Shown piece by piece: positions 31,569 through 51,926 of a stretch of DNA of 53,852 nt. The stretch is from Holophagales bacterium. GTDB lineage: Bacteria; Acidobacteriota; Thermoanaerobaculia; Multivoradales; Multivoraceae. Numbering within the stretch: position 1 is the first letter of the stretch; each line of letters begins with the position of its first letter. The notes beneath the pieces were generated by a model. That model searched no databases. It worked only from the letters and a program-made list of their open reading frames with translations, and was not told the origin of the DNA. The stretch covers positions 173,161-227,012 of the forward strand of contig VXSP01000012.1 of the NCBI GenBank assembly GCA_009837885.1, given 5' to 3'. A program made the position numbers and the translations under genes.

Positions 31569-32123
31569 ATCGCTGCAGATGGTACATCGCCTGACCGCGG
31601 GCATTGTCGGGCGGTGCGTCTGGTTTCCCGACGGTCGTGTAGCATCGGCGGCTTAGGTTGAGGTTGGCCGATGGCCCACGCCCCCAGCCGGCGCGGTCAA
31701 GAGTTGCGGCAAGGAGCCGTTGGCGAAGTGTCTTTCCAAGAAGAAGAGGATGGACTCCCTTAGCGCTGTTCTTGCGTCGTTCTCGGCGTCCGCTTCGCTC
31801 AACAGGCCAACTCTGGGCAGGAGGTCCGCCAGCGACCCTCTCTGTGTTCAAGGGACGCAGTGAAATGTAGATGCCCGAGTTCCATCGGGTGACGTTGGAG
31901 CTGCTTCTCGGGAAGATGGCCTTTGGGCGATGGTGAGATCCTAAGGCTAGCCGCTTCCTCTGTGCCGGGCGTGTGGTGGCCCGGCGCGGTGACAGTGAGA
32001 AGCGGTTCTGCTCGCCCGGTAACATGCTGCCGCCCCCTTAGCACTACGGAGACTTGTCGGCGAACCGGTAGGGAACCGCCGGGAGCGCTTTCCGTGGGCT
32101 TTCCACTTAGCCTCAGTCCGCCA
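31569..32123. other. Long intergenic stretch upstream of hsdR, nothing recognised
   Basis: About 555 bases without a convincing gene. Open frames on both strands are short or lack family features. A tiny + strand frame (31871-31936, 21 codons from ATG) is intact but unsupported. It presumably carries the hsdR promoter, but no clear -35/-10 pair or palindrome was identified. It could hold a decayed gene or a small RNA. Confidence 0.4.
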
Positions 32124-34922: not shown

Positions 34923-36409
34923 GGGAGCCTTGGCGCATTCCAGCTTCGTGGCGCTGGACCACGCTTGGAGAAGTGACGTCCGTAGTGGGCGGAGGAACGC
35001 CCAAGACCAGCCGAGGGGAGTACTGGAACGGGGATATCCCCTGGATCACGCCTGCCGATCTGTCGGGCTACGAGCGCAAGGAGATACGCAGCGGCGAGAG
35101 GTACATCACCGCAGCCGGCCTCAGGGGCTCATCCGCCCACCTCCTGCCTACGGGCACCGTTCTCTTCAGCTCAAGAGCGCCGATCGGATACGTTGCTATT
35201 GCGGCAACGCCAATGGCAACGAACCAAGGCTTCAAGAGCTTCGTGCCGCCATCCGGGATCGACCCGTCCTTTCTCTACTACTACCTGCGGTCGGCGAAAG
35301 GCCTTGCACTGTCGGCGGCTAGCGGCACTACGTTCAAGGAGCTCTCGAAACGAAGAGCGGCCTTGCTGGTGTTCCCGTTAGCTCCCGTTCCCGAGCAGCA
35401 CCGAATCGTCGCCAGAGTCGACGCCCTCTTCGCCGGACTGAACGACGGTATCGCCGCGTTAGAGCGCTCCGAGACCAACCTGGAGCGCTATCGGGCATCC
35501 GTCCTCAAGGCTGCGGTTGAGGGCCGGTTGACGGAGCGGTGGCGTAGCGAGAATCCACCGGACCAAACCGGCGAGCAGCTTCTCCGGCGTATCCTGGATG
35601 AGCGCCGCAAACGGTGGGAGGAGGAGCAGCTCGCCGCGTTCGCGGCCAAGGGCCGGAAGCCGCCGCGGAACTGGAAGACGAGTTACAAGGAGCCGCTCGC
35701 AGCGGACACCGCTGACCTACCGTCGTTGCCGGAAGGGTGGTGCTGGGCCACGATGGATCAGGTGACGTCAAGGACGATGAACGGCTTCGGAAGACGTTCC
35801 GACACGCCCGGGGGTGAGCCGCGCATGGTCCTGCGGCTTGCCGACGTCAAGAACGGCCGAATCTCTTACTCGAAGCCGCGGTACCTGGACTGCACTCCCG
35901 CTCAGATCGCAAAGTACAAAGTGGGTGCCGCCGACGTGCTCATCATCCGAGTGAACGGAAGTGCCAACTTGGTGGGTCGCTTGGTGGGCTGCGAGGATAC
36001 TCCTCAAGACGTCCTCTTTTGTGACCACTTCATTCGAGCCAAGTGCGTCAATCAAGAGCTCGGACGCTGGCTCCGAACGTACTCCGATTCTGAGGGCTTC
36101 CGATCGAAGATAACAAGGACGAAGGTCTCCAGTGCGGGTCAGCACACGGTGAACCAAGGCTCGATTCTCGCGATTCCAGTGCCGATTCCACCGGAAAGGG
36201 AACGAGTCGAGGTGCGGAAGGCCCTTGGGGCGGGCCTTAGCAAGACCGAGTCAGCTGAAGAGAGCACTGCCAAGGCATCGCGGCTTGTCTCAGTTCTCCG
36301 CCAGTCGATCCTCAAACGTGCGTTCGAGGGCCGCCTCGTCCCTCAGGACTCGAACGACGAGCCCGCTGGGGTCCTCCTGAAGCGCATCCGCGCTGCACGG
36401 GAAGCGTAG
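34919..36409 (+). CDS. hsdS: Type I restriction enzyme, S (specificity) subunit
   Basis: The 496-residue HsdS sets the target sequence of the complex. Two target-recognition domains are visible, opening with IPASWRWTTLGEVTSVVGGG and LPEGWCWATMDQVTSRTMNG. Each is followed by the coiled-coil spacer seen after half-subunits (PEQHRIVARVDALFAGLNDG in the centre and a similar helix near the C-terminus, SILKRAFEGRLVPQ). Length is normal for a two-domain HsdS, predicting a bipartite asymmetric site. The GTG start overlaps the hsdR stop, so R and S are translationally coupled. The specificity itself cannot be predicted. Confidence 0.93.
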   Translation: MREPWRIPASWRWTTLGEVTSVVGGGTPKTSRGEYWNGDIPWITPADLSGYERKEIRSGERYITAAGLRGSSAHLLPTGTVLFSSRAPIGYVAIAATPMATNQGFKSFVPPSGIDPSFLYYYLRSAKGLALSAASGTTFKELSKRRAALLVFPLAPVPEQHRIVARVDALFAGLNDGIAALERSETNLERYRASVLKAAVEGRLTERWRSENPPDQTGEQLLRRILDERRKRWEEEQLAAFAAKGRKPPRNWKTSYKEPLAADTADLPSLPEGWCWATMDQVTSRTMNGFGRRSDTPGGEPRMVLRLADVKNGRISYSKPRYLDCTPAQIAKYKVGAADVLIIRVNGSANLVGRLVGCEDTPQDVLFCDHFIRAKCVNQELGRWLRTYSDSEGFRSKITRTKVSSAGQHTVNQGSILAIPVPIPPERERVEVRKALGAGLSKTESAEESTAKASRLVSVLRQSILKRAFEGRLVPQDSNDEPAGVLLKRIRAAREA

Positions 36410-36495
36410 GTTACGCTGGCTGCGTCCGTCGTGGACCCCGCCGCCGGCAAGGGGGTGAGCGGCGAACTAGACAGCCACCGCACACGGAAGCACCC

Positions 36496-36765
36496 ATGAA
36501 CCCGGTAGCTTCGATGAAGACGACTCGCTACTTCGACGAACAAGTCTCGCGCAAGCGCCCCTACGTCGACGTGGACTTGTGCCGGTCCGTGATCGCCTCA
36601 CCGCTGCGGAGGGAACGCCAGGAGGACGGCCGCATACGCTTCTGGGGCAGAATCAGGCTGTCCGGCGAGGTCACTGACCGAGTTCTCCGCGTCGTGACCT
36701 TGGAGGACGGTGAGACCATCCACAACGCGTTTCTCGATCGCAGCTACCGTGAGGACAGGCAATGA
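36496..36765 (+). CDS. Small DUF4258-like protein paired with DUF2283
   Basis: An 89-residue protein (or 83 from ATG 36514). The core TTRYFDEQVSRKRPYVDVDL, then RIRFWGRI and RVLRVVTLEDGETIHNAFLD, matches a widespread small-protein family normally found directly before a DUF2283 protein. It shares the compact beta-rich layout of DUF4258/RelE-like toxins, so a toxin role is possible but untested. It overlaps the DUF2283 gene by 4 bases (ATGA). The pair interrupts the restriction operon between hsdS and hsdM. Confidence 0.65.
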   Translation: MNPVASMKTTRYFDEQVSRKRPYVDVDLCRSVIASPLRRERQEDGRIRFWGRIRLSGEVTDRVLRVVTLEDGETIHNAFLDRSYREDRQ

Positions 36766-36977
36766 AGTTGCACTACTACCCCGACACGGACAGCCTCTAT
36801 GTGGAGTTCAGGCGCGAACCGAGCGTGGAAACCCGGGAGATCGCTGACGGTCTCAACGTGGACTTCGACGCGAGCGGCAACGTCGTCGGCTTTGACATCG
36901 ACCATGCCGCCGAACGGCTCGAGTTGGCGACCCTGGAGACTCAAGAGCTGCCCGTACGGGCGTACAAGGCGGGCTGA
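36762..36977 (+). CDS. DUF2283 family small protein
   Basis: The 71-residue product has the full DUF2283 pattern: MKLHYYPDTDSLYVEFR, VETREIADGLNVDFDASGNV and VGFDIDHAAERLELATLET. The family is common, small and of unknown function, and is often encoded with the preceding type of small protein in a toxin-antitoxin-like arrangement. Start and upstream stop overlap (ATGA), indicating coupled translation. It is followed 91 bases later by hsdM. Confidence 0.85.
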   Translation: MKLHYYPDTDSLYVEFRREPSVETREIADGLNVDFDASGNVVGFDIDHAAERLELATLETQELPVRAYKAG

Positions 36978-37068
36978 CTACTCCGCCGGCAGTTCGGCCT
37001 CGAGGAAGAGTGACCCGAGCGGAGAGCCGGGAGGCGGTGCTACCGGCTCTCCCGGCGCATAGCGCACC

Positions 37069-38589
37069 ATGTCCGACAACCACACACAACGCATCGTCAA
37101 CAAGGCGTGGAGCTTTGCGCACCTGCTCCGGGACGACGGCTTGTCGTACATGGAGTACACGGAGCAGATCACCTTCCTGCTCTTTCTCAAGATGGCGCAC
37201 GAGAGAACCCAGCCGCCATGGAGCCAGCCTTCGATGGTCCCGGACGGGCTGGATTGGCCGAGCCTGCTGGCGGAAGACGGTGCCGACCTTGAATCGCACT
37301 ATCGCCACATACTGACCGAGCTCTCGCGCGAGGACGGCATGCTCGGGGAGATCTTCCGGCGGGCCCGGCAGCAGATCCAGAATCCCGCGACCCTCAAGCG
37401 GCTCATCGTCGATCTGATCGACCCCGAGGACTGGAGTTCGCTCGCGGCCGACGTGAAGGGCGACATCTACGAGGGCCTGCTCGCGAGGTCCGCCCAGGAG
37501 TCGCCCAAGGGCGCCGGGCAGTACTTCACCCCGCGCGAGCTGATCCGCGCGATCGTCGACGTCATGCGGCCAGGGCCGGACGACACGGTTTGCGATCCTG
37601 CCTGCGGCACCGGCGGTTTCCTGCTTGCTGCTCACGATCATGTTCTGCGGGAGCACGGCAGCACGCTGGACCCCGACCAGAAGCGCCATCTCCGCGGGAG
37701 CTTCGTCCAGGGCATGGACATCGTCCCTGCGACCGCCCGGCTCTGCATCATGAACCTGTATCTGCACGGGATCGATGCGGACCCGTGCCCCGTCCGGTCC
37801 GGCGTGGACAGCCTGGCGAGCGACCCCGGCGGCCAGCGCTTCTCGATGGTTCTGACCAATCCGCCCTTCGGCAAGAAGAGCACCGTCCGGATCGTCAACG
37901 AGGAAGGCGAGTTGGAGACGGAGTCCGACGCCTACGAGCGTCAAGGCTTCTGGACCAGCACGAAGAACAAGCAGCTCAACTTCCTCCAGCACGTGAAGAC
38001 GCTGCTCACGATCAACGGTTCGTGCGCCATCGTTGTGCCCGACAACGTGCTCTTCGAGGGCGGCGCCGGCGAGGTCGTGCGCACGAATCTGCTCCAGCAA
38101 TTCGATGTCCACACGCTGCTCCGGCTGCCGACGGGCATCTTCTACGCCCAAGGCGTCAAGGCGAACGTCCTGTTCTTCGATGCGAAGCCGGCGCGCGAGA
38201 AGGCGTGGACCGAACGTCTCTGGGTCTACGACCTCCGGACCAACAAGCACTTCACGCTCAAGATGAAGCCGCTCCGCCGTTCCGATCTGGACGAGTTCGT
38301 TGAGTGCTACCGCCCGAGCGAGCGCCACACGCGGCAGCCGACATGGAGCGAGGACGACCCCGACGGGAGATGGCGGGCGTACGACTACGAAGAGCTGGTC
38401 GAGCGGGACAAGCTCAATCTGGACCTGTCATGGCTGAGGGACCGTTCACTGGAGGACAGCGACAACCTGCCGGAGCCCGAAGTCCTTGCGGCCGAGATCG
38501 CCGAGGACCTGCGATCGGCGCTGGAGGCGTTCGAGGAGATCGCCGAGGAACTCGGTCGCGACCCGGATGGGATCGGGCAGCAGAGGTAG
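37069..38589 (+). CDS. hsdM: Type I restriction enzyme, M (methyltransferase) subunit
   Basis: The 506-residue HsdM is the N6-adenine methyltransferase of the system. It has the N-terminal HsdM helical domain (IVNKAWSFAHLLRDDGLSYM, then YTEQITFLLFLKMAHE), the SAM-binding motif DPACGTGGF (176-184) and the catalytic NPPF (264-267). Length and order are canonical, and both key motifs are intact, so it should protect the host genome. It is the last gene of the R-S-(small pair)-M set; the 91-base gap before it may hold its own promoter, which would allow methylation before restriction. Confidence 0.95.
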   Translation: MSDNHTQRIVNKAWSFAHLLRDDGLSYMEYTEQITFLLFLKMAHERTQPPWSQPSMVPDGLDWPSLLAEDGADLESHYRHILTELSREDGMLGEIFRRARQQIQNPATLKRLIVDLIDPEDWSSLAADVKGDIYEGLLARSAQESPKGAGQYFTPRELIRAIVDVMRPGPDDTVCDPACGTGGFLLAAHDHVLREHGSTLDPDQKRHLRGSFVQGMDIVPATARLCIMNLYLHGIDADPCPVRSGVDSLASDPGGQRFSMVLTNPPFGKKSTVRIVNEEGELETESDAYERQGFWTSTKNKQLNFLQHVKTLLTINGSCAIVVPDNVLFEGGAGEVVRTNLLQQFDVHTLLRLPTGIFYAQGVKANVLFFDAKPAREKAWTERLWVYDLRTNKHFTLKMKPLRRSDLDEFVECYRPSERHTRQPTWSEDDPDGRWRAYDYEELVERDKLNLDLSWLRDRSLEDSDNLPEPEVLAAEIAEDLRSALEAFEEIAEELGRDPDGIGQQR

Positions 38590-38628: not shown

Positions 38629-40827
38629 TTAGGCAGCCGTCGTCGGCGCTCCGGCACTCAGAAGGTAACGGTACAGCCTCGCCGTGAGCTTCGGGTCGCT
38701 CTCCTCGAGCAGCCGCAGGGCGGAAGCGGTCAGCGTCGCCGTCGTGCAGGGCTCGTCCGCGACGACCGAGGACGCGGCTGCCGTGGCGGCGACAGGCGCG
38801 CGGGGCTCGACCGCGTCGCCCGGCCCCAGTTGGCGGTGGCGCGCGCCGTCGGCGTCGAACACGGAGGCTCGTCCGGCGGTGATCAACTGAAGCGTGTCGT
38901 TCGTTTCGCCGGCGGCGAGAAGAGCTTCGCCCGCGGCGTGCTCGCGGGTGTCCAGCCAGTCCCGGAGATCGCCGATCAGCTCCTCGAAGAGGACCTGCCG
39001 GTCGAGCTGACGCTCCATGTCGGCGCCCACGGCTTCCAGCAGGGAAGGCCCTCCGCCTTCCGCGTCGTCGGTCGGCTGGTAGGTGGAGATCAGCACGTCC
39101 TCGCAGTGCTCCAGCGCCTGATCGTCATTCGGAGCGAACACGACGCCGCCGAAGACCGGCGGCGGCAGGTTCCGCTGCAGTTCCTTCTCGAGCGTCGCGG
39201 GTGCACGACTCATGACCACCTGCGTGCCGGCGCGGCGAGCGGCCAGGATGAAGCGGCACATGGCGCTGACGGTCGAGAAGTCGAGGCCGGATACGGCCTT
39301 GAAGTCGAGCACGATGCACGCAGGCCTGGGCTCTTCGCCGAGTGACCCCTGGAGCCGGTCCGCCAGCGGATAGCCGGCGCCGAAGAAGATGTAGCCCCGA
39401 AGCCTGTAGCCCCGCGCCCGCGATCCCTCGGCCCGCAGGATGGCCCGGTCCGGTATCGGGCGGACACGGTGGCTACGCTCGTCCCGCAGGGAGAAGGTGG
39501 CGTCGACGACGTCGACCCGACTCAGGCGCACGACGAAGAAGAGGATCGTGATCAGCATGCCGATGGCGACGCCTTCGAGGAATCCCAGGGCCAGGATCGT
39601 CACGAAGATCACGACGATGATCGCGTAGTCGCTCGGCGGCAGGCGCTTGCGGACCTTCAGCAGCCACTGGTCGAGCAATGCCACGCCCGTGAACAGCAGG
39701 ACCCCGCCCATGAGCGGCACGGGCACGAGCGTGAGCAGGACATCGCCGAAGATCAGCGGCGAGGCCGTCACCACCGCCACCGCGATGCTGGTCGACTTGA
39801 GGCCGGCGCCGAGCATCAGGTTGCGCAGAGAGGTCGGAACGACGTACGTGCCGGGCGGCGCGCCGCCGAGACCGGCGGCCAGGCTTCCGAGTCCGACGGC
39901 GCCGAACTCCCGGTTCCAGTCCAGCTCGCGACCGGAGGCGAGCTCGATGCCGCCGATGTACAGGGCGGTGCAGAGCAGGGTCACCAGAATCAGGACGAGG
40001 ATGTTCGGAATCTGAGGGCCGACCGCGCTCCAGTCGATGCGTGTCGCATCGTCGAGTGCCATGGGAGGCCACAGGTCCGATCCCGAGATGCCCGCGAACA
40101 GGAGGCCCCTGTCCTGCGCCTCCTGGGTCGAGACACCGAAACGCGCCATGCCGAAGTGCAGGAGGCCCGTGCCGGCGATGAAGCTCCCCGGCATCAGCAG
40201 GGGGCTGGGCCAGCGTCGGCTGGCGAAGTACAGGCCGAGGCCGTAGGCGACGCCGACGCCCCAGTTCGTGACGACGAGCGGATCGAACAGCGACGCGAGC
40301 GCTTCGGCGTCGAGTCGCACGCCCATGAGCCTCAGAGCCACGACGCAGGCAAGTCCGCCCGTGCCGGCGACGAAGCCCGACGAAACGGGGTAGGGAAAGA
40401 AGCGCACCAGGTTGGCGAGGCGAAAGCGCTCGATGAGAAGGGCGCAGGCCGCCGTCGCGACCGAACCCAGAACGATGATCGCGACCATGGTGGGCAGCAG
40501 CTCGTCGCCGGTAGCGGTGAGCGAACCGCCAATCACCCCGAGGGCGATCATCGTCGCCATCGTGGGCCCGGCGGCGGCGCCCGCGAAGCCGCTTCTGAGC
40601 CCGGTGACCACGCAGGCGGCCGCGGTGCCGAACAGGATCAGCCCGATGCCCTGGGACAGGTAGGGGGCGAGCTGTCCCGAGAAGGCCAGGCTGACAAGGG
40701 CCACCTCGCCGATGATCAGGCTGATGCCGGAGACGAATCCGACCGTCAGCACGGTGAACGCCTTTCGGACTGCCGCATTCGACGCAAGGCCGGCCGGCAG
40801 CCCTCTCCCGGGGGGTTCTCCAGTCAT
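38629..40827 (-). CDS. SulP-family anion transporter with STAS and C-terminal cyclic-nucleotide-binding-like domain
   Basis: The 732-residue membrane protein has about 10-12 hydrophobic segments in the first ~430 residues (TVLTVGFVSGISLIIGEVAL; GLILFGTAAACVVTGLRSGF; PFPYPVSSGFVAGTGG-like region), as in SulP sulfate/bicarbonate/anion transporters. A STAS domain follows (about 470-590, ACIVLDFKAVSGLDFSTVSA). The last ~110 residues (GEALLAAGETNDTLQLITAG) resemble a Crp/cNMP-binding beta-roll. This is the layout of regulated SulP proteins in many bacteria. The ion is not predictable. It follows the epoxidase-cyclase gene by 87 bases on the same strand, and could be the last gene of that operon or have its own promoter. 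Confidence 0.85.
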   Translation of the reverse strand: MTGEPPGRGLPAGLASNAAVRKAFTVLTVGFVSGISLIIGEVALVSLAFSGQLAPYLSQGIGLILFGTAAACVVTGLRSGFAGAAAGPTMATMIALGVIGGSLTATGDELLPTMVAIIVLGSVATAACALLIERFRLANLVRFFPYPVSSGFVAGTGGLACVVALRLMGVRLDAEALASLFDPLVVTNWGVGVAYGLGLYFASRRWPSPLLMPGSFIAGTGLLHFGMARFGVSTQEAQDRGLLFAGISGSDLWPPMALDDATRIDWSAVGPQIPNILVLILVTLLCTALYIGGIELASGRELDWNREFGAVGLGSLAAGLGGAPPGTYVVPTSLRNLMLGAGLKSTSIAVAVVTASPLIFGDVLLTLVPVPLMGGVLLFTGVALLDQWLLKVRKRLPPSDYAIIVVIFVTILALGFLEGVAIGMLITILFFVVRLSRVDVVDATFSLRDERSHRVRPIPDRAILRAEGSRARGYRLRGYIFFGAGYPLADRLQGSLGEEPRPACIVLDFKAVSGLDFSTVSAMCRFILAARRAGTQVVMSRAPATLEKELQRNLPPPVFGGVVFAPNDDQALEHCEDVLISTYQPTDDAEGGGPSLLEAVGADMERQLDRQVLFEELIGDLRDWLDTREHAAGEALLAAGETNDTLQLITAGRASVFDADGARHRQLGPGDAVEPRAPVAATAAASSVVADEPCTTATLTASALRLLEESDPKLTARLYRYLLSAGAPTTAA

Positions 40828-40914: not shown

Positions 40915-43900
40915 CTACGGTTGGCGTGCGGGCCGCGCCCGGCGTCTTCGTTCGTAGAGACCGAGCGCGTGCAGGGGAAAGTACTGGCGATAGAGCGGGT
41001 ACTCGAGGATTCCGGAACGGGCGTAGACCCCAGCCGCGTCCTGCCTTGGCCATCCTCCCCCGGGTTCCTGCGTGTCGAGCAGGAAGCCGACCCCCCGCGT
41101 GATCGCGCTCCAATCCCCGTCGTTCGCCTCGAGCAGCGCGATCAATGCCCACGCAGTTTGAACGACCTGCCCCTCCGGATGCTGCACGAAGCGGCCGGCG
41201 AGGCAGCTGCTGTGGTGCTCGCCCCACGCTCCATCGCTTCGCTGGCGATCGAGCAGCCATCCGCAGGCCAGGCCCAGCGCCGGATCGCCGGGCCGCGCGC
41301 CGGCGGCCACCAGCCCTCTGACGCCGAAGAGCGTGCCGTAGATGAAGTGGATGCCCCAGGTCCCGGGCCAGGATCCATCGTTTGCCTGGGTCCGCCGGAG
41401 CCAGGCGCCGCCCCGCGAGACGGCGTTCGCCACGTCCGCACCGGCGATCCGCGGGAAGTCCCGCTGACAGGCGGCGAGCGCGGCGAGGCAGGAGGCCGTG
41501 CATTCGACATAGGAGTTCTCGGTCATCGCGTCGGCGAACATCTCGGAGGGGTTGAGCCACTCGAGGCCGACCGCCGTGCGTCGCGCCTCGTAGCTGCCGA
41601 ACCCGCCATTTGCGTTCTGGGCGTGCAGCATGAAGCGAACAGCTTTTTCGAGGGCTACCGCATTCGCGGCCTCGCGCCGTCCGGCGAGGATCCCGAGCAC
41701 GGCCTCTGCTGTGCAATCGCTCACCGGCCAGCCCTGCCACGCCCTTCCCAGGCACCAGCCTCCGCTCGGGTCCGCTCGGTCCACCTCGAGAAAACCGTCG
41801 AAGCCGTCGCCGACCTGTTCGCTGGACAGATAGTGGGCTCCCCTTCGCAAGGCGTCGCGAACGCCTTCAAGTGCGGGCGCGGTCGCGAGCGCCTGTTGGG
41901 CGAAGCCAGTGTCCCAGGTCGGCGTTCTCTGCAGGGCGACCCGGGTTCCGCCCTTCGCGTCCTCCCAGACCCAGCGCTCAAGCTGTGCCAGCGCGTCGGG
42001 CAGGTCGGGGTCTTTGGCGTCGCGCAGCCAGAGGGCGAGAACGGCTAGCAGGCCGTTGAGCGGCGACAGGTTCGCGTGGGTCGTTGCCCGCAGTTCCCAG
42101 CGGATGCGCCGGACGATCTCCGTGGTGCATCGGGCCCGCAGCCGCTTGCCGTGGAACCGTTCGAACACGCGGGCCAGAAGGTAGGCCGACCGGAGCCAGA
42201 CGGTAGGCCTGATGTACAGGTCCGCCTCCCGGAGGCGGTTGCGGCTGGCGGCGAAGTCGACCCCGGCGAAGCCCTCCGGGAACAGCTCCTCCCGCAGCGC
42301 GGTGATCGTCGGCGTGACCGGGGTCGAGAACCGGTGCGAGTAGATGAGTGCCATCGCCGTGTAGATGAGCCGCGAGTGGCAGTACCAGTTCGACGGATGC
42401 AGCGGCAGTCGGCGCGGCAAGCTGGACAGTTCCGGCAGGATGGGGTTGACGCCGCGCCAGTCGTAGAGGTTCAGGAGGGCGAGCCAGAACTTTCCCCAGC
42501 TTGGGATGCTCGTCACCCCCTCTCCCTGAATGAACCGCCGGGCCGGCACCAACAGGGGATCGTCGGATGCGACGCCGAGGAGCCTTGCGGCTACGTACAC
42601 CAGGGTTGTGACGAACAGGTGGGGTGGCGAGTGCCGGTGGAATCCCCACTGGCCATCGCCGAGACGCGTTCGCTCGAAGTAGCGCAGCAGACGCCGGCGA
42701 CGACCGGGGTTCGGCGGGAGTCCGAGAATGTGGTGTACGAGCACGTACTGCGCGGTGAGCATGGGACACCAGACGAGTTCGGCCTCCCAGGCGCCGTCCT
42801 CACCCTGAAGGGCGAGGACGTGCGCGGTTGCGCGCCTCAAGCCGGAGTCGGCGTCGAGGGAGACGGCGGCCGTCGGGCGGGTGCGCTCGGAGGCGGTGCG
42901 CCGGGGTGGCATGGAGGTCGGGAACGCGCGCGCAAAGGTGTCCCGCACCCGTTCTTCGGCCTCGGAGTCCAGCCGGTCCCGGTTTCGCCCTGCCTTTCTC
43001 GCCCTGACCAGTTGATGGAGGGCGCGTAGAAACCAGCCGAGGCGGAGGGCCAGGGCCCGTACGGTGCCTCGGGCCCGGCGCCAGGCACGCCGGTCGAGGG
43101 ATCGCGGAGTCACCCTCGCCGAGGCACGCGCCACCAGTCCGGCGAACGCGACGACAAGGTGGCGCGTCGACGTGTCCTCGCAGGCGAGCAGGGCCATCGT
43201 CCGCTCGCGCAGGGCGGGATTGGCCCGCCAGCGCCGATAGACCGCCTGCCTGACTGCCACGACCTCGGCCCGATGGTCGACGAACACCTCGTAGAGCCCG
43301 TTGGCGAGAAGTTCCGGGGCGCGGGTCGACCGCAGGCGGCGTGCGGAAAACTCGTCGAAGTCTCCGCCCTCGGCCAGCGCAAGCGCATCTTCGAATCCCA
43401 GGGTCAACCCCATCGCCGTGATCGGGTGGTGGTGGCCGGCCGCATCGCCGATCAGTACGCGATCGGGAGTCCCATAGCTCATGCGCACCCGGATCTCGTT
43501 GGCCGCGGCGCTGACCCGCTTCTCCCGCAGCGCCTTGAGGAACGCGCACTTGAGCGCCTCCGGCAGGAAGGCCGCGTAGGAGTCGGCAAGGAGCGCGATA
43601 CGGTCCCGCGGCGCACGGTGCTCCAGCGGGACATCGACCATGACCCGCACACACTGCTCCCCGAGCCCGTACATGAAGACCGGCCCCGGTCCGCCCAGGA
43701 GGACGTGTCCGTACTCCGGGAACGGCAGGCTGACTCTCTCCAGCAGCAGGCCCACCATCCACGAACAGGGGACGCGGTTCGTTGAGAGGCCCAGCGACTT
43801 GCGCACGATGGACGCGCGACCGTCGGCGCCAACAACCCGCCTCGCGCGCAGGGCATGGACGGCGCCTTGCCGGGCGAAGGTGAGCCGCCCGTCTTCGACT

Positions 43901-44298
43901 TCGCGCACGCGGGCGCCGCAAATGAAGTCGACGCCGTTCTCACGTTGCGCGGCTTCACGCAGCTTCGAGACGATCGTCGCGTGGTCGCAGCTCAATCCGG
44001 AAGATCCGGCCGAGTAGGGGAGCACGATGGGCTCTTCCCCGTGCCCTTCGGGTAGCACGACGAACCCCTTGCCGGGATTGCTGCAAGGTTCTTCCTCGAG
44101 TCGGATGCCGGCGTCGCGCAGCATCCGCAGGCCGGCAGGGTGCAGCCACTCACCCGCCAGTCTCCTGGACGCCTTGAGGTTCGCTTCCAGCAGGGCCACT
44201 CGAGCGCCCTTCCTGGCGTGGACGAGCGCGCAGAAGCTGCCCACGGGGCCCGCGCCGACGATTGCGATGTCGTAGCTTGAACGCGTGGGTTCAACCAT
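40915..44298 (-). CDS. Fused squalene-epoxidase-like flavoprotein and oxidosqualene cyclase
   Basis: From ATG 44298 the product has 1127 residues and two enzyme halves. Residues about 8-430 are an FAD monooxygenase of squalene epoxidase type: dinucleotide motif IVGAGPVGSF, DG motif VVGADGRASI near 159, and GD motif IGDAAGHHHPITAMG (284-298), recalling the GDA-HPLTGGGM block of squalene epoxidases. After a basic linker, residues about 475-1127 are an oxidosqualene cyclase. The acid motif is DCTAE (Asp861), not the DxDDTA of squalene-hopene cyclases. His641 in YCHSR matches the conserved WCHCR of lanosterol/cycloartenol synthases, YVECT holds Cys933, LNPSEMF and SWPGTWG are present, and five QW-type repeats occur. 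It would convert squalene to 2,3-oxidosqualene and cyclise it to a sterol-like product. It begins 41 bases after an RND permease on the same strand. Product identity cannot be read from sequence. Confidence 0.9.
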   Translation of the reverse strand: MVEPTRSSYDIAIVGAGPVGSFCALVHARKGARVALLEANLKASRRLAGEWLHPAGLRMLRDAGIRLEEEPCSNPGKGFVVLPEGHGEEPIVLPYSAGSSGLSCDHATIVSKLREAAQRENGVDFICGARVREVEDGRLTFARQGAVHALRARRVVGADGRASIVRKSLGLSTNRVPCSWMVGLLLERVSLPFPEYGHVLLGGPGPVFMYGLGEQCVRVMVDVPLEHRAPRDRIALLADSYAAFLPEALKCAFLKALREKRVSAAANEIRVRMSYGTPDRVLIGDAAGHHHPITAMGLTLGFEDALALAEGGDFDEFSARRLRSTRAPELLANGLYEVFVDHRAEVVAVRQAVYRRWRANPALRERTMALLACEDTSTRHLVVAFAGLVARASARVTPRSLDRRAWRRARGTVRALALRLGWFLRALHQLVRARKAGRNRDRLDSEAEERVRDTFARAFPTSMPPRRTASERTRPTAAVSLDADSGLRRATAHVLALQGEDGAWEAELVWCPMLTAQYVLVHHILGLPPNPGRRRRLLRYFERTRLGDGQWGFHRHSPPHLFVTTLVYVAARLLGVASDDPLLVPARRFIQGEGVTSIPSWGKFWLALLNLYDWRGVNPILPELSSLPRRLPLHPSNWYCHSRLIYTAMALIYSHRFSTPVTPTITALREELFPEGFAGVDFAASRNRLREADLYIRPTVWLRSAYLLARVFERFHGKRLRARCTTEIVRRIRWELRATTHANLSPLNGLLAVLALWLRDAKDPDLPDALAQLERWVWEDAKGGTRVALQRTPTWDTGFAQQALATAPALEGVRDALRRGAHYLSSEQVGDGFDGFLEVDRADPSGGWCLGRAWQGWPVSDCTAEAVLGILAGRREAANAVALEKAVRFMLHAQNANGGFGSYEARRTAVGLEWLNPSEMFADAMTENSYVECTASCLAALAACQRDFPRIAGADVANAVSRGGAWLRRTQANDGSWPGTWGIHFIYGTLFGVRGLVAAGARPGDPALGLACGWLLDRQRSDGAWGEHHSSCLAGRFVQHPEGQVVQTAWALIALLEANDGDWSAITRGVGFLLDTQEPGGGWPRQDAAGVYARSGILEYPLYRQYFPLHALGLYERRRRARPARQP

Positions 44299-44339: not shown

Positions 44340-47300
44340 TCAGCGCGCGTGGCCGGCCCCCGCCGGAAGTCCGCCCGCGCGTTGCGCCAGGGCGATGCGC
44401 CACCGCGCGGCGACGCCGGCGCCACGCTCGACCAGCACCATGACGGCCGGCAGGAACACCAGGAGTCCGACGCCGGCCAGCGACAGGCCGCCGACCAGGC
44501 TCACGATCACGGGCAGGAACGGTTCGACGGACTCGGCTCTGTTGTAGAGGAGAGGCGTGAGTCCGACGATGGTGGTGACCGTCGTGAGCACGATCGGCCG
44601 TGCGCGCAAGAGGGCTGCTCGCGTCACGGCCTCCCTGACCGTCACGCCCGGTTCGTTCCGCCGGATCCGGTTGTGCATGTCGAGCAGCACCAGGGCGTCG
44701 TTGACCACGACGCCAGTGGCCGCGATCATCCCGAACATCGACACCAGACCGATGTCGTAGCCGAGGGCGAGGTGCATGTACAGCGAGCCTCCGATCGCCA
44801 GCGGGAGTCCGACCAGCACGTAGAGCGGCTGAACGAGGCTCCGGAGCTGGATCGCCATGAGGACGAACATGGCCAGGAGCGCCGCGGGGAAACTGACGCC
44901 CAGCATGCGGACGATCTTCGCCGTGTCGCGGGACGATCCGTCCGGCAGGTATCGAAGTTCCGGATACCGCGCCGACAGCTCCTCGAGCCAGTCGCCCAGC
45001 ACGAGCGCCCGGAGTTCCCTGGAACTCGTCGCCGCGACGTTGTAGAGGGCGGTCATCGTCACCGAGGGCAGGGCGTCGATGCGCTGGCGCTGGGCCAGTT
45101 CCTGACTCTCGACGAGGCGCGCCTGGCTGGCAAAGGAAGTGAGTTCGCCGTTCGGCAGGCGAATCAGTTCGTCGTCCAGGTCCGCCCGCCGCGTGCGCCG
45201 TTCCATCGGATAGCGCGCCATGACCTCGAGTTCTTCCTGGTTTCTGACCACGCGATGGGCTTCCGCGCCGTAGAACCGATTCCGCAGGTGTGCCGCGACA
45301 GATGCGGCGGTGAGCCCCGAAGCGTGCGCCGCGTCCGTGAGTTCGACCTCGTAGCGCCGGCTGCCGAGTTCAAGCGTGTCGTCGACCTGGTAGATCGGTG
45401 GATGCGCGGTCATCCTGCGTTTGAGCTCGGTCGCGACCGCCATCAGGGCGTCCTCGTCCGGATGAGTGAGCACGAAGCCGACGCCGGCAGAGCTGTAGCC
45501 GGTCGCCTGCGGGAACGCGATCGTCTCCGCGCCCTGTACGGTGCCGATCGTCTCCACCCAGACCTTGCGGAGCTCGGCCACCGACACCTCCCGCTCCGGA
45601 TAGGTGTTGAGCCGCAACTGGACCGAGGCGAGGTGCGGCCCGGGCTCGGCCTGATTCACGCCGGCCGCGGTTTCCATCGACTTGTGCTGGCCGACGAGGA
45701 CGTTGACGGCGTTGACGGCCGTGCCGCCCGTGACGGTGTTCGCCTCGTGGGCGGCCGCCGCGATGCCTTCCACCGCCCGCACCGTTTCCGGGAACGTCGA
45801 ACCGGGCGCCATGGTCAGGTCGATCTGAAGCTGTTGCTCGTCGAGTCGATTGCCGGTCGTGTTGAACCGGATGACGTCGACCGCCAGCAGCGAGACGGCC
45901 AGGCCGACGACCGCCGCGAAGGCGACCGTGGACGTCCATGGGTACCGGAGCGAGAACCGGATCATCGCCCCTATCCGGTGCTCGATGAACTCCTCGAACC
46001 GGCGTCTGGCAGCCCGCTGCCAGATTCGCAGGGGCCAGCCGCTGATCTCTCCCGTGCCGGACAGGTGCGCCGGGAGCAGGAAGAAGGCGTCCAGAAGAGA
46101 GAAGAGCAGCACGACGATGACCACGACGGCCATCGAACTGAACATCATGCCGAGCACGCCGTCCAGGGGAAGCAGCGCGGCGAACATGAACAGGGTGGTC
46201 AGCACCCCGACGGTGACTGGCGCCATGACCTCTCTCGCGCCGCGGATCGATGCCTGAAGCGGTGGTACACCCGACTTGCGGTGGCGCTCGATGTTCTCGG
46301 CAACGACGAGTGCATCGTCCACGACGATGCCCACCACGACGGCAAGTCCGATGACGGCCATGATGTGCAAGGTCATGTCCAGGAGGTAGAGGGCGGTAAA
46401 GGCGCCCACCATGGCGGTCGGGACCCCGACGGCCACCCAGAGGCCGGATCGCAGGTCGAGGAGCAGCACGAGGACGACGAACACCAGCGCCGCGCCCACG
46501 AGCGCGCTGTCCGCCACGGACAGGAGCGGCTTCTTGACGGAGAACACCCGGTCCATCCAGAGGTCCAGGTTCATGCCGGCGGGCGGACCGTTGGCGGCCA
46601 GGTAGGCGTCGACTTCGTCGCGAACGTCCTGCGGATCCACGCCGTTGGGCGCGCTGACCTCGATGAAGACCGCTGGTACGCCATCGACGGTGTTGACGAG
46701 AGGATCGTCGACAAAGCCGTCGCGGATGGTGCCGATGTCGCCGAGTCGCACGATCGATCCGTCGGACTTGCTCAGGATGACGATGTCGGCGAACTCGGGC
46801 CCGCTGTTGCGCTTCTGCAGCACGCTCAACACCAGGGTGCCGGCTCTGGTCCCCAGTTCTCCGCCGGACAGGTTGATCGACGAGTTCCGGATGCGGCCGA
46901 TCACGTCATCGACGGTCAGGTGGTGACTTCGCAGCCGGGTCTCGTCGAGATCGACCTGGATCTGGCGCTCGCGGGCGCCGTACAGGTCGACGACCGTCAC
47001 CTTCGGCAGGAAGAGGAGCTGTTCACGCAGTTCCTCCGCCGCCAGCGTGAGGTCGTGCTCGCTCGCAGTGGCGGACGTCAGCACAAGTGACAGGGCGCCG
47101 CGGAGAATCTCGTGGCGGACGATCTCGGGTTCGTCCGCTCCCGGCGGCGGGAAGTCCTCGATTCCCTCCACCGCCGTCCTCACGACATCGAGCTTGGCGA
47201 CCGTGTCCTGCCACTGCTCGAACTCGACGATCACCTCCCCCTTGCCCTCCCAGGCGTTGGCGGTGATGCGGTCCACGCCGTCGAGCGAAGCGAGGCTCTC

Positions 47301-47525
47301 CTCGATGCGGCGGAGGATGTCCTCTTCCACTTCCCGGGGCGTCGCGCCGTCATAGGGCACCGTGATCGTGATCCTGCGCAGGTCCATCGCGGGGTAGCGC
47401 TCTACCGTCGTGTTGGCGAGCGCGATCAGGCCGAGCGCGAGGAGGCCGATCGTCCCGAGCATCACGGCGATGCGGTTCCCCGCCATGTACTCGAAGACGG
47501 ATCGCGGATGCGCGCCGTCAGCCAT
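44340..47525 (-). CDS. RND efflux permease (AcrB/MdtC-like), second of two
   Basis: The product is 1061 residues from ATG 47525; a TTG at 47555 is an alternative start. It has the duplicated RND layout: one N-terminal transmembrane helix (AVMLGTIGLLALGLIALA), the porter sequence TVPYDGATPREVEEDILRRI, the transmembrane cluster with the paired aspartates of the proton relay (VGIVVDDALVVAENI), a second periplasmic half and the C-terminal cluster with GVVVNDALVLLD. It is expected to be an inner-membrane proton-driven exporter. Together with the preceding RND gene it may form a heterotrimeric pump as in MdtBC. It is directly followed by the epoxidase-cyclase gene, hinting that a triterpenoid may be a substrate. 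Confidence 0.92.
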   Translation of the reverse strand: MADGAHPRSVFEYMAGNRIAVMLGTIGLLALGLIALANTTVERYPAMDLRRITITVPYDGATPREVEEDILRRIEESLASLDGVDRITANAWEGKGEVIVEFEQWQDTVAKLDVVRTAVEGIEDFPPPGADEPEIVRHEILRGALSLVLTSATASEHDLTLAAEELREQLLFLPKVTVVDLYGARERQIQVDLDETRLRSHHLTVDDVIGRIRNSSINLSGGELGTRAGTLVLSVLQKRNSGPEFADIVILSKSDGSIVRLGDIGTIRDGFVDDPLVNTVDGVPAVFIEVSAPNGVDPQDVRDEVDAYLAANGPPAGMNLDLWMDRVFSVKKPLLSVADSALVGAALVFVVLVLLLDLRSGLWVAVGVPTAMVGAFTALYLLDMTLHIMAVIGLAVVVGIVVDDALVVAENIERHRKSGVPPLQASIRGAREVMAPVTVGVLTTLFMFAALLPLDGVLGMMFSSMAVVVIVVLLFSLLDAFFLLPAHLSGTGEISGWPLRIWQRAARRRFEEFIEHRIGAMIRFSLRYPWTSTVAFAAVVGLAVSLLAVDVIRFNTTGNRLDEQQLQIDLTMAPGSTFPETVRAVEGIAAAAHEANTVTGGTAVNAVNVLVGQHKSMETAAGVNQAEPGPHLASVQLRLNTYPEREVSVAELRKVWVETIGTVQGAETIAFPQATGYSSAGVGFVLTHPDEDALMAVATELKRRMTAHPPIYQVDDTLELGSRRYEVELTDAAHASGLTAASVAAHLRNRFYGAEAHRVVRNQEELEVMARYPMERRTRRADLDDELIRLPNGELTSFASQARLVESQELAQRQRIDALPSVTMTALYNVAATSSRELRALVLGDWLEELSARYPELRYLPDGSSRDTAKIVRMLGVSFPAALLAMFVLMAIQLRSLVQPLYVLVGLPLAIGGSLYMHLALGYDIGLVSMFGMIAATGVVVNDALVLLDMHNRIRRNEPGVTVREAVTRAALLRARPIVLTTVTTIVGLTPLLYNRAESVEPFLPVIVSLVGGLSLAGVGLLVFLPAVMVLVERGAGVAARWRIALAQRAGGLPAGAGHAR

Positions 47526-47558
47526 GCCGGAGCCCTTCGGCCTCCGTCGCCGCAACCT

Positions 47559-50500
47559 TCATGCGGGCGCTCCCGCCGCGGCCTGCGCCGCGTGCAATCG
47601 AACCTTGGCCAGTTCGACGATCATCAGAACCGACGGCAGCAGAAACAGCAGGCCGACGCCGGCGAACACAAGGCCGAAGGTCAGGCTGACCACGAGCGGA
47701 ACCAGGAACTGGATCGCTTCGGCGCGGCTGAACAGGATCGGAAGCAGGCCGATCACCGTCGTGAAGGACGTCAGAAGGATGGCCCGGGCGCGCTGCCGGG
47801 CCGCCGCCGAGATCGCCGCGATCTCGGGCACGTCGGGGAGCTCGGCCCGGATGGCGTTGTAACGGTGCATCAGCAGGATCGTGTCGTTGACCACGACGCC
47901 GGACACGGCGATCAGGCCGAACAGGGACGTGATCGTGAACTCGTAGCCCAGCACCCAGTGGCCTGCCGCGGCGCCGACGAACGCGACGGGGATGCCGGCA
48001 AGCACGAGCAGCGGCTGGATGAAGCTGCGCAGGAACGACGCGATCAGGCAGTAGATGACCAACAGGGCGATCAGCACCGAGACCAGCAGCGTGTCGCCGA
48101 GGCGCTCGACGTCCCGCGACCCGCCGTGCTTGCGTAGCTCCAGGCCCTCATGGCGCGCCTCCAACTGCGGAACCAGTTCGTCTTCCGCGTGTTCGGCAAC
48201 GTCGCCGGAGAGCGCCGCGCCGAGGTCGAGATTCGCGGTGACGACGACGGCGGCGCGGCCATCGATGCGAAGCCGGTTGGCCTGGCTCTCGGTTTCGCGT
48301 ATCCCGGCCACCGTGTACAGGGGGACCTGATCGCGGCTGCCCGGGAGACTGATGCGCTCGTTCAGCAGTTCTGCGTAACTGTCGCGGCGCTCGCTCGGAT
48401 AGCGCACCATGACCAGCACTTCCTCGCGGCCTCGCTGGATCCGTTGCGCCTCGGCGCCGTAGAACGCATCCCGCAGTTGGGTGGCGACGATCGCCGGCGT
48501 GAGACCTGCCGCATGACCGGCCGCGTTCAGCGTCACCTCGAGCCGGCGGCTGCCCTTGCCCAGGGTGTCGTCCACGGATGCAACGCCGGCCGTACGCGAC
48601 CAGATGTCGCGTAGCGAGCCTGCCGCGTCGTGCAGCACGTGGTCCTCTGGATGCATCAGGGCGTACGAAACCGCGCCAGTCGGACGGCTGCGGCGGGTCG
48701 GGAAGGTCAGCGGCAGGTCGGCCAGCTTGCGTTGCCAACGGAAGCGGAACTCGTCCTTCGTGACCTCGCGGTCCGGGTCCCGGTGCAGTCTCAACTGGAC
48801 CGAGGCGACGTTGCCCCTGTAGTAGCGCCCGGGATCGCTGCCGGCAAAGGTCGCCAGAGGAATGTGCCGGCCGATGACCACGACGCGGCCGCCGATGATG
48901 TTGCCGCCCAGTTCCTCGTCGAGCTGTCTCGCCGCATCGACCATGCGATCGGTTGCCGCCACGACGTCGGCGACGGGCGTATCGACCGGCAGCACGAGGT
49001 CCGCCTGGATGGTCTGATCGTCCGCGACGCTGAGACTGGGGCTCCAGGGCACCCACCCGATCAGCAGCGCTCCCCCTGCGAGGACGAGAGCCGCCGCGAC
49101 GATGACGGGCGGCCAGACGGGTCGTCGCACCGACCAGGTGATCAACGGCACGATGCTGGACTCGATCGAACCCTCCATCGAGGTGCGGAGCCTGTCCTGT
49201 ACGACCGACAGGGGCCAGGTCTTCACGCCCGCGCCCTTCGCCAGGTGCCCGGGCAGCACCAGGAACGTGTCCAGCAGGGACAGCAGCATGACGACGCCCA
49301 CCACGATGGGAATCGGAGTGAACATCTGGCCGATGACGCCGCCAAGCGGCAGCAGTGCGGCGAACGCGGCCACCGTCGTGAGCCCCGCGACCACGAGGGG
49401 GCCGAGCACGCGGCGGGCGCCGACGATCGACGCATCGACCTGGTCGAGCCCCTGGGACCGGGCCGTCGCCACGCTCTCCGCGGCGACGATCGAGTCGTCG
49501 ACCACGAGCGCGATCAGGATGAAGAAGGCGAACAGGGTGATGACGTTGATGGAGAGTCCGAAAACGGGGAAGAAGATCAGGGCGCCGACGAACACGACCG
49601 GAACCCCCATCGTCACCCAGGCGCCGGTCCGCAAGTCGAAGACCAGCATCAGCGTCAGGAAGACCAGTACGAGACCGTAGACGCCGTTCTGGATGACGAG
49701 ATTGAGACTGTCCGTGACGGCCCACGACTCGTCTTCCCAAACCTGCAGCCGCGTGCCCGCAGGGGGCTGCCAGCCCTCGAGGAATCCGCGCACCTGGCTA
49801 CTGGCCTCCCGGGGCGAGACTCCGGGCACTGCTTTCACCTGCACCAGCACGGCAGGGCTGCCGTCAAGGGTCGTGCGGACGTCCTGTTCCAGCAGCCCGT
49901 CCCGGAGCTCCGCGATCTCGCCCAGGCGCACCAGGGATCCGTCGGGCCTCGAGATCACCACGACGTCGGCGAACTCGTCCGCGTAGCCCCGCTTGGCGAG
50001 CGTGCTCATGACGATCTCGCCGGTGTCGGTGCTCAGTTCACCGCCCGTGATGTTCACGGAGGTGGTGCGGATGACCTGCACCAGGTCCTGGAAGGTCAGC
50101 CCGTAGCGGCGCAGCGTCTCCTCGTTGACCTCGACCTTGATCTCCTGATCGATCGTGCCGAACAACTCGACGATTGACACGCCGGGCAGCAGCAGGAGGC
50201 TGTCCCGCAGGGACTCGGCGGCCCGGCGCAGGTCGTACGCGCCCAGGACATCGGAACTGACGGCGAGGGTCAGCAGGTTGCGGGTGACCTCGACCCGGGT
50301 GACTTCGGGCTGGTCGGCGTTGCCCGGAGGGAAGTCCTCGATTCGCTCGACGGCGGTACGCACGTTGTTGATCACGTCTACCGGATCGGCGTAGTCGTCG
50401 ATCTCGGCGTCGACGACGGCGAGCGCGTGCCGGGACGACGAAACGAAGCGGGAGATGCCGATCTCGCCGACGAGGCTCTCCTCGATGCGCTTGACGATGT

Positions 50501-50726
50501 CCTCTTCGACTTCGATCGGCGTCGCGCCCGGATAGGGCACCTCCACGCGGATCACTCCCGGGTCGTACTTCGGGAACGTCTCGACCGGTACCAGGTTGAA
50601 CGCCAGGAGTCCGCTGACGAACACCAGGAACAGCAGGACGTAGGCGGCGACCGGGTTGCGGCCGAACCAGGCAACCAGGCCCGGGCGGGTTCGCGCCGCG
50701 TCGCCGGCGCCGTCCGGTTCAGCCAT
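47559..50726 (-). CDS. RND efflux permease (AcrB/MdtB-like), first of two
   Basis: A 1055-residue inner-membrane RND permease with N-terminal helix (VAAYVLLFLVFVSGLLAFNL), the porter motif VEVPYPGATPIEVEEDIVKRI, paired relay aspartates (LIALVVDDSIVAAESV) and a GVVVNDTILLMHRYN segment in the second half. Length is standard. It is preceded 45 bases upstream by the fusion protein gene and runs nearly into the second RND gene (33 bases from its stop to the chosen ATG). The two permeases are homologous but clearly different, as in pumps that use mixed trimers. No outer-membrane channel gene is present in the window. Confidence 0.93.
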   Translation of the reverse strand: MAEPDGAGDAARTRPGLVAWFGRNPVAAYVLLFLVFVSGLLAFNLVPVETFPKYDPGVIRVEVPYPGATPIEVEEDIVKRIEESLVGEIGISRFVSSSRHALAVVDAEIDDYADPVDVINNVRTAVERIEDFPPGNADQPEVTRVEVTRNLLTLAVSSDVLGAYDLRRAAESLRDSLLLLPGVSIVELFGTIDQEIKVEVNEETLRRYGLTFQDLVQVIRTTSVNITGGELSTDTGEIVMSTLAKRGYADEFADVVVISRPDGSLVRLGEIAELRDGLLEQDVRTTLDGSPAVLVQVKAVPGVSPREASSQVRGFLEGWQPPAGTRLQVWEDESWAVTDSLNLVIQNGVYGLVLVFLTLMLVFDLRTGAWVTMGVPVVFVGALIFFPVFGLSINVITLFAFFILIALVVDDSIVAAESVATARSQGLDQVDASIVGARRVLGPLVVAGLTTVAAFAALLPLGGVIGQMFTPIPIVVGVVMLLSLLDTFLVLPGHLAKGAGVKTWPLSVVQDRLRTSMEGSIESSIVPLITWSVRRPVWPPVIVAAALVLAGGALLIGWVPWSPSLSVADDQTIQADLVLPVDTPVADVVAATDRMVDAARQLDEELGGNIIGGRVVVIGRHIPLATFAGSDPGRYYRGNVASVQLRLHRDPDREVTKDEFRFRWQRKLADLPLTFPTRRSRPTGAVSYALMHPEDHVLHDAAGSLRDIWSRTAGVASVDDTLGKGSRRLEVTLNAAGHAAGLTPAIVATQLRDAFYGAEAQRIQRGREEVLVMVRYPSERRDSYAELLNERISLPGSRDQVPLYTVAGIRETESQANRLRIDGRAAVVVTANLDLGAALSGDVAEHAEDELVPQLEARHEGLELRKHGGSRDVERLGDTLLVSVLIALLVIYCLIASFLRSFIQPLLVLAGIPVAFVGAAAGHWVLGYEFTITSLFGLIAVSGVVVNDTILLMHRYNAIRAELPDVPEIAAISAAARQRARAILLTSFTTVIGLLPILFSRAEAIQFLVPLVVSLTFGLVFAGVGLLFLLPSVLMIVELAKVRLHAAQAAAGAPA

Positions 50727-50771: not shown

Positions 50772-51926
50772 TCACGGGGCGTCTACGGGGACCGGATTGA
50801 CCGCCAGTCCTTCGCGAGCGCCGGCGACGCTTCCGACCACCACGCCGCCCTTCGCATCGAAGGCGTCCACGATCCAGCCGTCGTCCCGGAAGCCTCGGGA
50901 TACTGGGAGGAAGGAAACCAGCGTGCTGTCGTCGACCAGCCAGACGCTGGAATTGAGTTGCATGGCCGACTCCGGCAGAACAAAGACATCTTCGCGAACC
51001 GGGCCCGCCACCGTCACGTCGACGAACGTCCCCGGTCGCGGAAGGACCTCCTGCCTTCCCTGGTTGAGCACCCGCAGATAGAGGCTGGCGAGACGCGTCT
51101 CGAGGTCCACCACGCGGGAGACCCGCTCCACCTCGGTTTCGTACGCGCGCCCGTCGGCCACCACCGAGGCGGTACGTCCGATGGCGGGCTGCAGGGAGTC
51201 CAGGTCGAACGTGGAGATCTGTGCGCGTACCCGCAGTTGGTTCCTCGGGAAGACATCACCGAGCGTGGACGTGCGCGCACTGACCACCTGGCCGACGGAC
51301 AGCGAGGTCGCACGCACGTAGCCGGCGAATGGCATGCGGATGCGGGTCTGGTCCAACTGGATCTCCGCCAGCGTGACCCGGTGCCTGGCGGTTTCGACCA
51401 GCGACTCCGCCTTCTCGATTGCGCCATCGAGCGCGGGCCAGGGATGAACCGTTCCGTTCGGTTGCGTGGCGTAGTACTCGGAACTCCGGCCGTGCCGGTC
51501 CTTCACTTCCTTCAGGTGCGCCTCGGCGTAGTCCAGGTCCAGCTTCGCCATGGCGAGGCCGATCTCGTACTCGGTCGCGTCGATACGGGCAAGCGTCTCG
51601 TCGGCGGCGAAGACGCCGCCGGCACGGAACTTCTCCGAAACGAAGACAACGTCGCCGGACGCCTCCGGGATCACCATCACGTTGCCAAGCGTGGTCACGG
51701 TGCCCGTCAGCGTCACGCTGTGCGACGCGCTGGTCGGTCGAGGCTGCATGACGGCAGCCGTCGGTTCAACGCCGCCTGGAACAGCTTCCGGGTCGAGTTC
51801 GAGAAACTCCTGGCGCGGCGCCCGGGCGAGGAGTATCGCCGCCAGGACGACCGCGGCGATGACCACGAGCTGCAGGATCCCTCGCCACTTCGGAGCTTCT
51901 CGCCCTTCGTCCGTATGCGCTTCCAC
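50772..51926 (-). CDS. RND periplasmic membrane fusion protein (HlyD/AcrA family)
   Basis: A 384-residue adaptor protein starting with GTG. One N-terminal membrane anchor (LQLVVIAAVVLAAILLA) is followed by a lipoyl-like half (GNVMVIPEASGDVVFVSEKF), a helical hairpin (about 115-200), the second half (IRMPFAGYVRATSLSVGQVV) and beta-barrel/membrane-proximal domains (VLPESAMQLNSSVWLVDD). It links RND permeases to an outer-membrane channel across the periplasm. It is first in the operon with both RND genes, so its promoter probably drives the set including the epoxidase-cyclase. No in-frame ATG exists near the start, and a purine-rich GAGGGGA sequence lies upstream of the GTG. Confidence 0.9.
   Translation of the reverse strand: MEAHTDEGREAPKWRGILQLVVIAAVVLAAILLARAPRQEFLELDPEAVPGGVEPTAAVMQPRPTSASHSVTLTGTVTTLGNVMVIPEASGDVVFVSEKFRAGGVFAADETLARIDATEYEIGLAMAKLDLDYAEAHLKEVKDRHGRSSEYYATQPNGTVHPWPALDGAIEKAESLVETARHRVTLAEIQLDQTRIRMPFAGYVRATSLSVGQVVSARTSTLGDVFPRNQLRVRAQISTFDLDSLQPAIGRTASVVADGRAYETEVERVSRVVDLETRLASLYLRVLNQGRQEVLPRPGTFVDVTVAGPVREDVFVLPESAMQLNSSVWLVDDSTLVSFLPVSRGFRDDGWIVDAFDAKGGVVVGSVAGAREGLAVNPVPVDAP

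Follow-up and report, generated by a model that had tools for sequence, protein, structure and literature searches.

We analysed a window of 53,852 nucleotides of contig VXSP01000012.1 from a Holophagales bacterium (assembly GCA_009837885.1; the genome is called G000 below), in which one gene encodes a squalene monooxygenase (SQMO) fused to an oxidosqualene cyclase (OSC). The gene lies at 40915..44298 on the minus strand, which the earlier note on this DNA had left unstated, and specifies 1127 amino acids from an ATG at 44298 to a stop at 40915. The frame is open over all 1127 codons, and the mechanical open reading frame (ORF) extends further upstream to a GTG at 44403. A linker at approximately residues 456-484 (42847..42933, minus strand) separates an N-terminal part (42934..44298, minus) from a C-terminal part (40915..42846, minus). 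Four Pfam domains scored above their curated cut-offs: FAD_binding_3 (residues 9-309) and SE (squalene epoxidase, PF08491; 155-386) in the first part, SQHop_cyclase_N (488-781) and SQHop_cyclase_C (792-1116) in the second. The motif GAGPVG starts at residue 15, GADGR at 157 and GDA...HPITAMG at 284, followed in the cyclase by YCHSR at 639, DCTAE at 861 (Asp861) and YVECT at 930. The FAD motifs (GxGxxG, DG and GD...HPxT) are all present and are invariant across 39 fused rows, except for the Thr, found in 38 of the 39. An AlphaFold model based on 65 aligned sequences gave a mean predicted local distance difference test score (pLDDT) of 88 and a predicted template modelling score of 0.62, with pLDDT below 50 at linker residues 468-477. 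Overall, the fusion of an SQMO half and an OSC half in one protein is real and far beyond chance, and the uninterrupted frame, the domains and the motifs all stand where the earlier note had placed them.

The identity of each half was examined by profile, sequence and fold. For the C half, the top solved-structure match by sequence was human lanosterol synthase (hLSS; E 1.8e-124). D861, C862 and C933 align with hLSS D455, C456 and C533, and H641, V859, D861, Y903, C933 and W977 are identical to the human residues. The broader squalene/oxidosqualene cyclase model TIGR01787 was passed (472 against 322.7 bits), the squalene-hopene cyclase (SHC) model TIGR01507 fell short (262 against 431 bits), and SDCTAE stands in place of DxDD. 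This agrees with the earlier assignment of the cyclase as an OSC and not an SHC. For the N half, the top match was human squalene monooxygenase (E 1.9e-27, against 2.4e-5 for a digeranylgeranylglycerophospholipid reductase in the PDB). The geranylgeranyl reductase model TIGR02032 reached 63.7 bits against a cut-off of 158.8, and fold comparison again placed the two human enzymes at the top for their respective halves. The N half is thus closer to squalene monooxygenase than to the geranylgeranyl reductases. The earlier interpretation thus stands as regards the halves, the fusion and the OSC identity. It does not stand in holding that no natural fusion had been described, since MsbE (PMC7074536) and "fused SMO/OSC homologs" (PMC10070321) have been published, and it overlooked the altered cyclase pocket and the missing demethylation genes described below.

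Fused and split forms in other genomes

The earlier note had proposed looking for the same fusion elsewhere, and it proved widespread. In the protein collection, the best 120 of 970 relatives, with the window protein among them, all have at least 1100 residues. A scan of species-representative genomes returned 120 encoding places, the best 80 of which were kept as loci; these belong to ten phyla by NCBI names, with three loci lacking a phylum assignment. Both halves lie in a single open frame at 74 of the 80 loci. At five more (L033, L060, L071, L073, L074) one frame spans the junction but is truncated at a boundary of the stretch or interrupted at another place, and one (L079) is split at the junction. 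More divergent fused proteins were also found (G119, P0229, P0232, P0239, P0314, P0325, P0329 and P0344). An assembly or annotation artefact joining two neighbouring genes would fit the existence of split, overlapping versions, some in the same genus. However, because 74 loci are fused in one frame and five more span the junction, and because fused members occur in other records, also within the clade with the variant pocket (P0002, P0005, P0014, P0023), we consider this explanation extremely improbable. Sponge origin could be traced for at least 23 of the 80 loci, 21 by the jk18x prefix and two from their own records (L016, L023); these data do not show a distribution restricted to sponges. 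For the window itself, TIGR03436 gives no more than a hint of an Acidobacteriota origin. Two jk18x metagenome-assembled genomes (MAGs), L081 being one, are named in the Ircinia set of Kelly 2022 (PMC9531527).

Clustering of the open frames around the 80 loci revealed conserved neighbours: a Rieske protein at 59 loci, a P450 at 55 (a cluster that mixes the operon P450 with GPP34-P450 proteins), a short-chain dehydrogenase/reductase (SDR) at 50, a C14 reductase at 50 and a sterol methyltransferase (SMT) at 42. Upstream sequence of 4.8 kb or more was present at 64 loci: 50 of them have at least three of the four upstream genes on the same strand, and six have none of the four. The names CYP51 and SdmA used here are taken from Mohanty (PMC7074536) and Kelly (PMC9531527) on the basis of the same operon position. 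In the same-genus genome G302, the SdmA-type protein scored 387 bits with the NCBIfam SdmA model, whose cut-off is 600, and the NCBIfam matches listed for the operon P450 include no CYP51 model.

Close relatives carry both forms. In the class, three of 148 genomes match at E 1e-120, and all three belong to the 21 genomes of the same genus: G000 is fused, whereas G302 and G446 (two copies) have overlapping split frames, in G302 at the linker position. These split genes belong to the same families as the window fusion, are adjacent and are approximately 54-65% identical to it, and they differ in being two overlapping frames and in having the canonical pocket. Unlike the window gene, the split pair is adjoined by CYP51-type and SdmA-type genes (G302 contig C13, G446 contig C12). 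Both split copies in G446 (L139, L140) have the canonical pocket. In the phylum, 86 of 396 genomes gave a match at 1e-40, almost always with approximately 30% identity and in the cyclase only. Both halves appear in the match table for G000, G302 and G119 only, with two candidates scored per genome and G446 outside that draw. The fusion in G119, from another family of the phylum, is divergent (46% identical, L133:8988-12440), with no match to an operon gene within the 20 kb fetched.

Trees were built for each half. In the OSC tree of 124 rows (39 of 120 listed hits labelled "alone", 10 rows as outgroup), the outgroup stands apart from a single clade of fused and split rows, and the fused/split label changes 13 times; at least seven of these changes are forced by starred branches. 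The SQMO tree of 79 rows (38 of 120 listed hits "alone") has 10 such changes, again at least seven forced by starred branches. These counts are upper readings, since some "alone" rows are gene fragments: P0213, on a 2.4-kb contig, lies at zero distance from the fused L059, and P0203 is no longer homologous to the window protein beyond that protein's residue 999. P0239, entered in the OSC tree as an outgroup row, turned out to be fused, and fused rows are found among the outgroup rows. Split rows are interspersed among fused rows in both trees, so a single origin of the fusion is not supported; either the two states would interconvert or the fusion would have arisen repeatedly. Because split versions are thus interspersed and also occur in the same genus, the fusion does not look essential.

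A variant cyclase pocket and its genomic setting

We compared eleven pocket positions, chosen from hLSS active-site residues and mapped by alignment to hLSS, in 311 rows. Such residues line the cyclase cavity; for 444 this is stated in Thimmappa 2022 (PMC9236903). The canonical profile M/V-H-G-F-H-V-D-Y-C-W-F occurs in 275 of the 311 rows. The window protein reads L-H-L-L-Q-V-D-Y-C-W-Y, an exact profile shared by six rows including itself, and five more rows, with L at 444 and Q at 449, deviate from it in a few letters or by a gap. In the window protein the changes include the segment from L850 (position of hLSS F444, where Leu marks parkeol synthases) to Q855 (position of hLSS C449) at 41734..41751 and the segment with Y1092, A1093 and G1096 (positions of hLSS F696, N697 and C700 by alignment) at 41011..41025, both on the minus strand.

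Comparing ten variants with the 275 canonical rows, we found 18 variant-specific positions. At 508, 789, 850, 855 and 1092 the conservation holds by construction, the canonical rows having been selected by profile; positions 747, 748, 790, 1093 and 1096 lie outside the selection profile and still have one and the same residue in 274 or 275 of the 275 canonical rows. In the tree the variants form a group with P0027, P0105 and P0180 (support 98-99, starred), and this grouping persists after deletion of the 18 variant-specific columns. F-to-L at 444 occurs in 17 of the 311 rows and needs approximately five changes, and it therefore arose outside the variant clade too. P0053, P0082, P0099, P0116 and P0103 are fusions with Leu at 444 and otherwise canonical pocket positions, which makes them further candidates for an altered product. 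None of the 74 fused loci has Leu at 444.

No msb-type operon gene lies within the window. Upstream and on the same minus strand are genes of a resistance-nodulation-division (RND) pump: an RND permease (ACR_tran, 44340..47555), a second RND permease (47559..50726) and a periplasmic adaptor (50772..51926; RND_mfp TIGR01730, over cut-off). The gaps from adaptor to permease, permease to permease and permease to fusion are 45, 3 and 41 nt, counted on mechanical ORFs. Downstream, after a gap of 87 nt, is a SulP-type transporter with STAS and cyclic-nucleotide-binding (cNMP) domains (38629..40827, minus). Farther away are type I restriction-modification genes with R, S and M domains (31923-38589, plus) and a polyketide-synthase frame of 3508 amino acids with ketosynthase, acyltransferase, methyltransferase and ketoreductase domains (15255-25781, minus).

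Searches of G000 with same-genus queries found no orthologue of the operon P450 (26%, against 100% in G302 and 92% in G446), and none of the SdmA-type oxygenase (best 28%, 38.8 bits; detected in G302 and G446). The operon SDR had no orthologue in G000 either; its best match there was the HpnA gene. The window lineage therefore seems to be without the CYP51-type P450, the SdmA-type oxygenase and the SDR, unless they lie in the unassembled part. Elsewhere the genome carries a C14 sterol reductase (73% identity with its operon counterpart), an SMT together with a GPP34-P450 and a flavin oxidoreductase on contig C16, and a second SMT directly followed by a KshA-type Rieske oxygenase (L108:8955-11198) on C9. 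The squalene/phytoene-synthase family is represented by one gene, and hopanoid synthesis by the set SHC-HpnH-HpnA, with the SHC on C33 at 607 bits. In two G000 proteins (L109:10823-12847 on C16 and L099:9451-11691 on C25), a GPP34 (Golgi phosphoprotein 3) domain is fused with a cytochrome P450. Full-length homologues of the C16 protein occur in 14 of the 80 fusion loci, with partial matches in three more.

Predicted product and known systems

From these features we predict that the N half would epoxidise squalene with FAD and O2 and that the C half would then cyclise the oxidosqualene. This two-step activity is very likely; the channelling between the halves that the earlier note proposed may or may not occur. 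His477-to-Gln in plant cycloartenol synthase, at the position equivalent to 855, is reported to favour parkeol. Lanosterol, lanostadienol and parkeol synthases are told apart by position 444 (F, Q and L, respectively), and a Gemmata enzyme with L at 444 yields parkeol (Thimmappa 2022, PMC9236903). The leucine and the glutamine of the window protein thus together point to a delta-9(11) product, likely parkeol or a similar tetracyclic triterpenol instead of lanosterol. Since orthologues of the CYP51-type P450, the SdmA-type oxygenase and the SDR were not found, the product would probably remain methylated at C14 and C4, barring action by other oxygenases. We favour, with moderate confidence, this whole reading of one-protein epoxidation and cyclisation, likely to parkeol or a similar tetracycle; that parkeol itself is the main product is a more tentative prediction, which we place a little below an even chance.

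Several observations weigh against this reading. Sea-urchin lanosterol synthase F440L was reported to yield lanostadienol and lanosterol (PMC9236903) and, in a later paper, parkeol (PMC11641436); these reports disagree on what F-to-L at 444 does by itself. The changes L789, Y1092, A1093 and G1096 may also affect the product. The NCBIfam model osq_cycl TIGR03463 is still the top model and remains below its cut-off (689 against 851 bits). A retained C14 reductase would be odd if nothing is demethylated at C14, and argues against a pathway ending at parkeol. The other P450s of the genome, two GPP34-P450 proteins among them, and its KshA-type Rieske proteins could stand in for the missing enzymes, and a gene may be missing from an assembly of 4.56 Mb that is 97.56% complete. 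V859 (hLSS V453) fits the lanosterol type; the key Val of MsbE would be this same residue.

This valine, together with the C14 reductase and the two SMT genes kept in the genome, would also suit an ordinary MsbE-type fusion making lanosterol, in which the altered pocket reflects tolerated drift and the genes for demethylation were lost or missed. However, several positions uniform in 274-275 of the 275 canonical rows change jointly in the variants, and the CYP51-type and SdmA-type orthologues were not found although the same-genus controls were detected, so we judge this alternative unlikely. A fused cyclase producing another skeleton, a non-sterol tetracycle or pentacycle exported as a secondary metabolite by the adjoining RND pump, would account for the unusual L789, Y1092, A1093 and G1096 and for the pump genes directly upstream on the same strand. 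The match of H641, V859, D861, Y903, C933 and W977 to hLSS speaks against it, and we regard it as quite improbable. The parkeol reading could be extended to a self-contained squalene-to-parkeol enzyme whose pocket was retuned in its clade, in a window lineage without CYP51 and SdmA that converges with sea cucumbers and whose C14-methylated delta-9(11) sterol is handled by the upstream pump; as a whole we find this rather doubtful.

Fossil sterols are used to trace eukaryotes and sponges, and it is debated who makes the sterols of a sponge. A single gene that would lead from squalene to a sterol skeleton occurs in records of ten phyla, and a variant of it likely makes another skeleton. Together they make it possible to test directly how the choice of cyclase product and the loss of demethylation are coupled, and the natural fused/split pairs allow measuring whether fusion helps.

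As a kind, the SQMO-OSC fusion is already known from sponge symbionts. MsbE, encoded in the msb cluster of a Melophlus symbiont from the Gammaproteobacteria (Mohanty 2020, PMC7074536), has by its published description an N-terminal squalene epoxidase and a C-terminal sterol cyclase, like the window protein, and a key Val whose position is unstated in the available text. The window gene shares with this type the order of SQMO then OSC in one frame. It differs in location, which is context and not defining: msbE lies in msbA-F with an oxidoreductase, a Rieske oxygenase, a sterol reductase, a C30-demethylase homologue and an SMT, none of which is in the window. For a tree, Brown 2023 (PMC10070321) trimmed sequences described as "fused SMO/OSC homologs". 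In Kelly 2022 (PMC9531527), 115 of 537 Ircinia MAGs, spread over 10 phyla, are reported to carry an operon that matches, and the gene is named LSS/ERG7. The gene order of these steroid clusters is the same as around the fusion in the loci of its relatives, and the LSS/ERG7 nucleotide alignment of 3765 positions is consistent with the length of a fusion; the words fused, fusion and epoxidase have 0 occurrences in the available main text. The window copy stands outside such an Ircinia-type cluster. The available parts of Wei 2016 (PMC4919349) and PMC13277303 give no SQMO-OSC fusion, and in the open-licence literature, as far as its text was available, we found no paper tying parkeol to a sponge-symbiont fusion. 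The novelty here is the pocket variant, a small group with linked substitutions, in a genome where the usual genes for demethylation were not found. A close parallel is in the parkeol synthases of sea cucumbers and Gemmata (PMC9236903). These are reported as OSCs, with no fusion mentioned in the available text, and the comparison with the window protein covers position 444, where they too have Leu. Sea cucumbers are reported to be without CYP51, the loss of which may have accompanied the change at 444 (PMC9236903), and a CYP51-type gene was likewise not found in the window genome.
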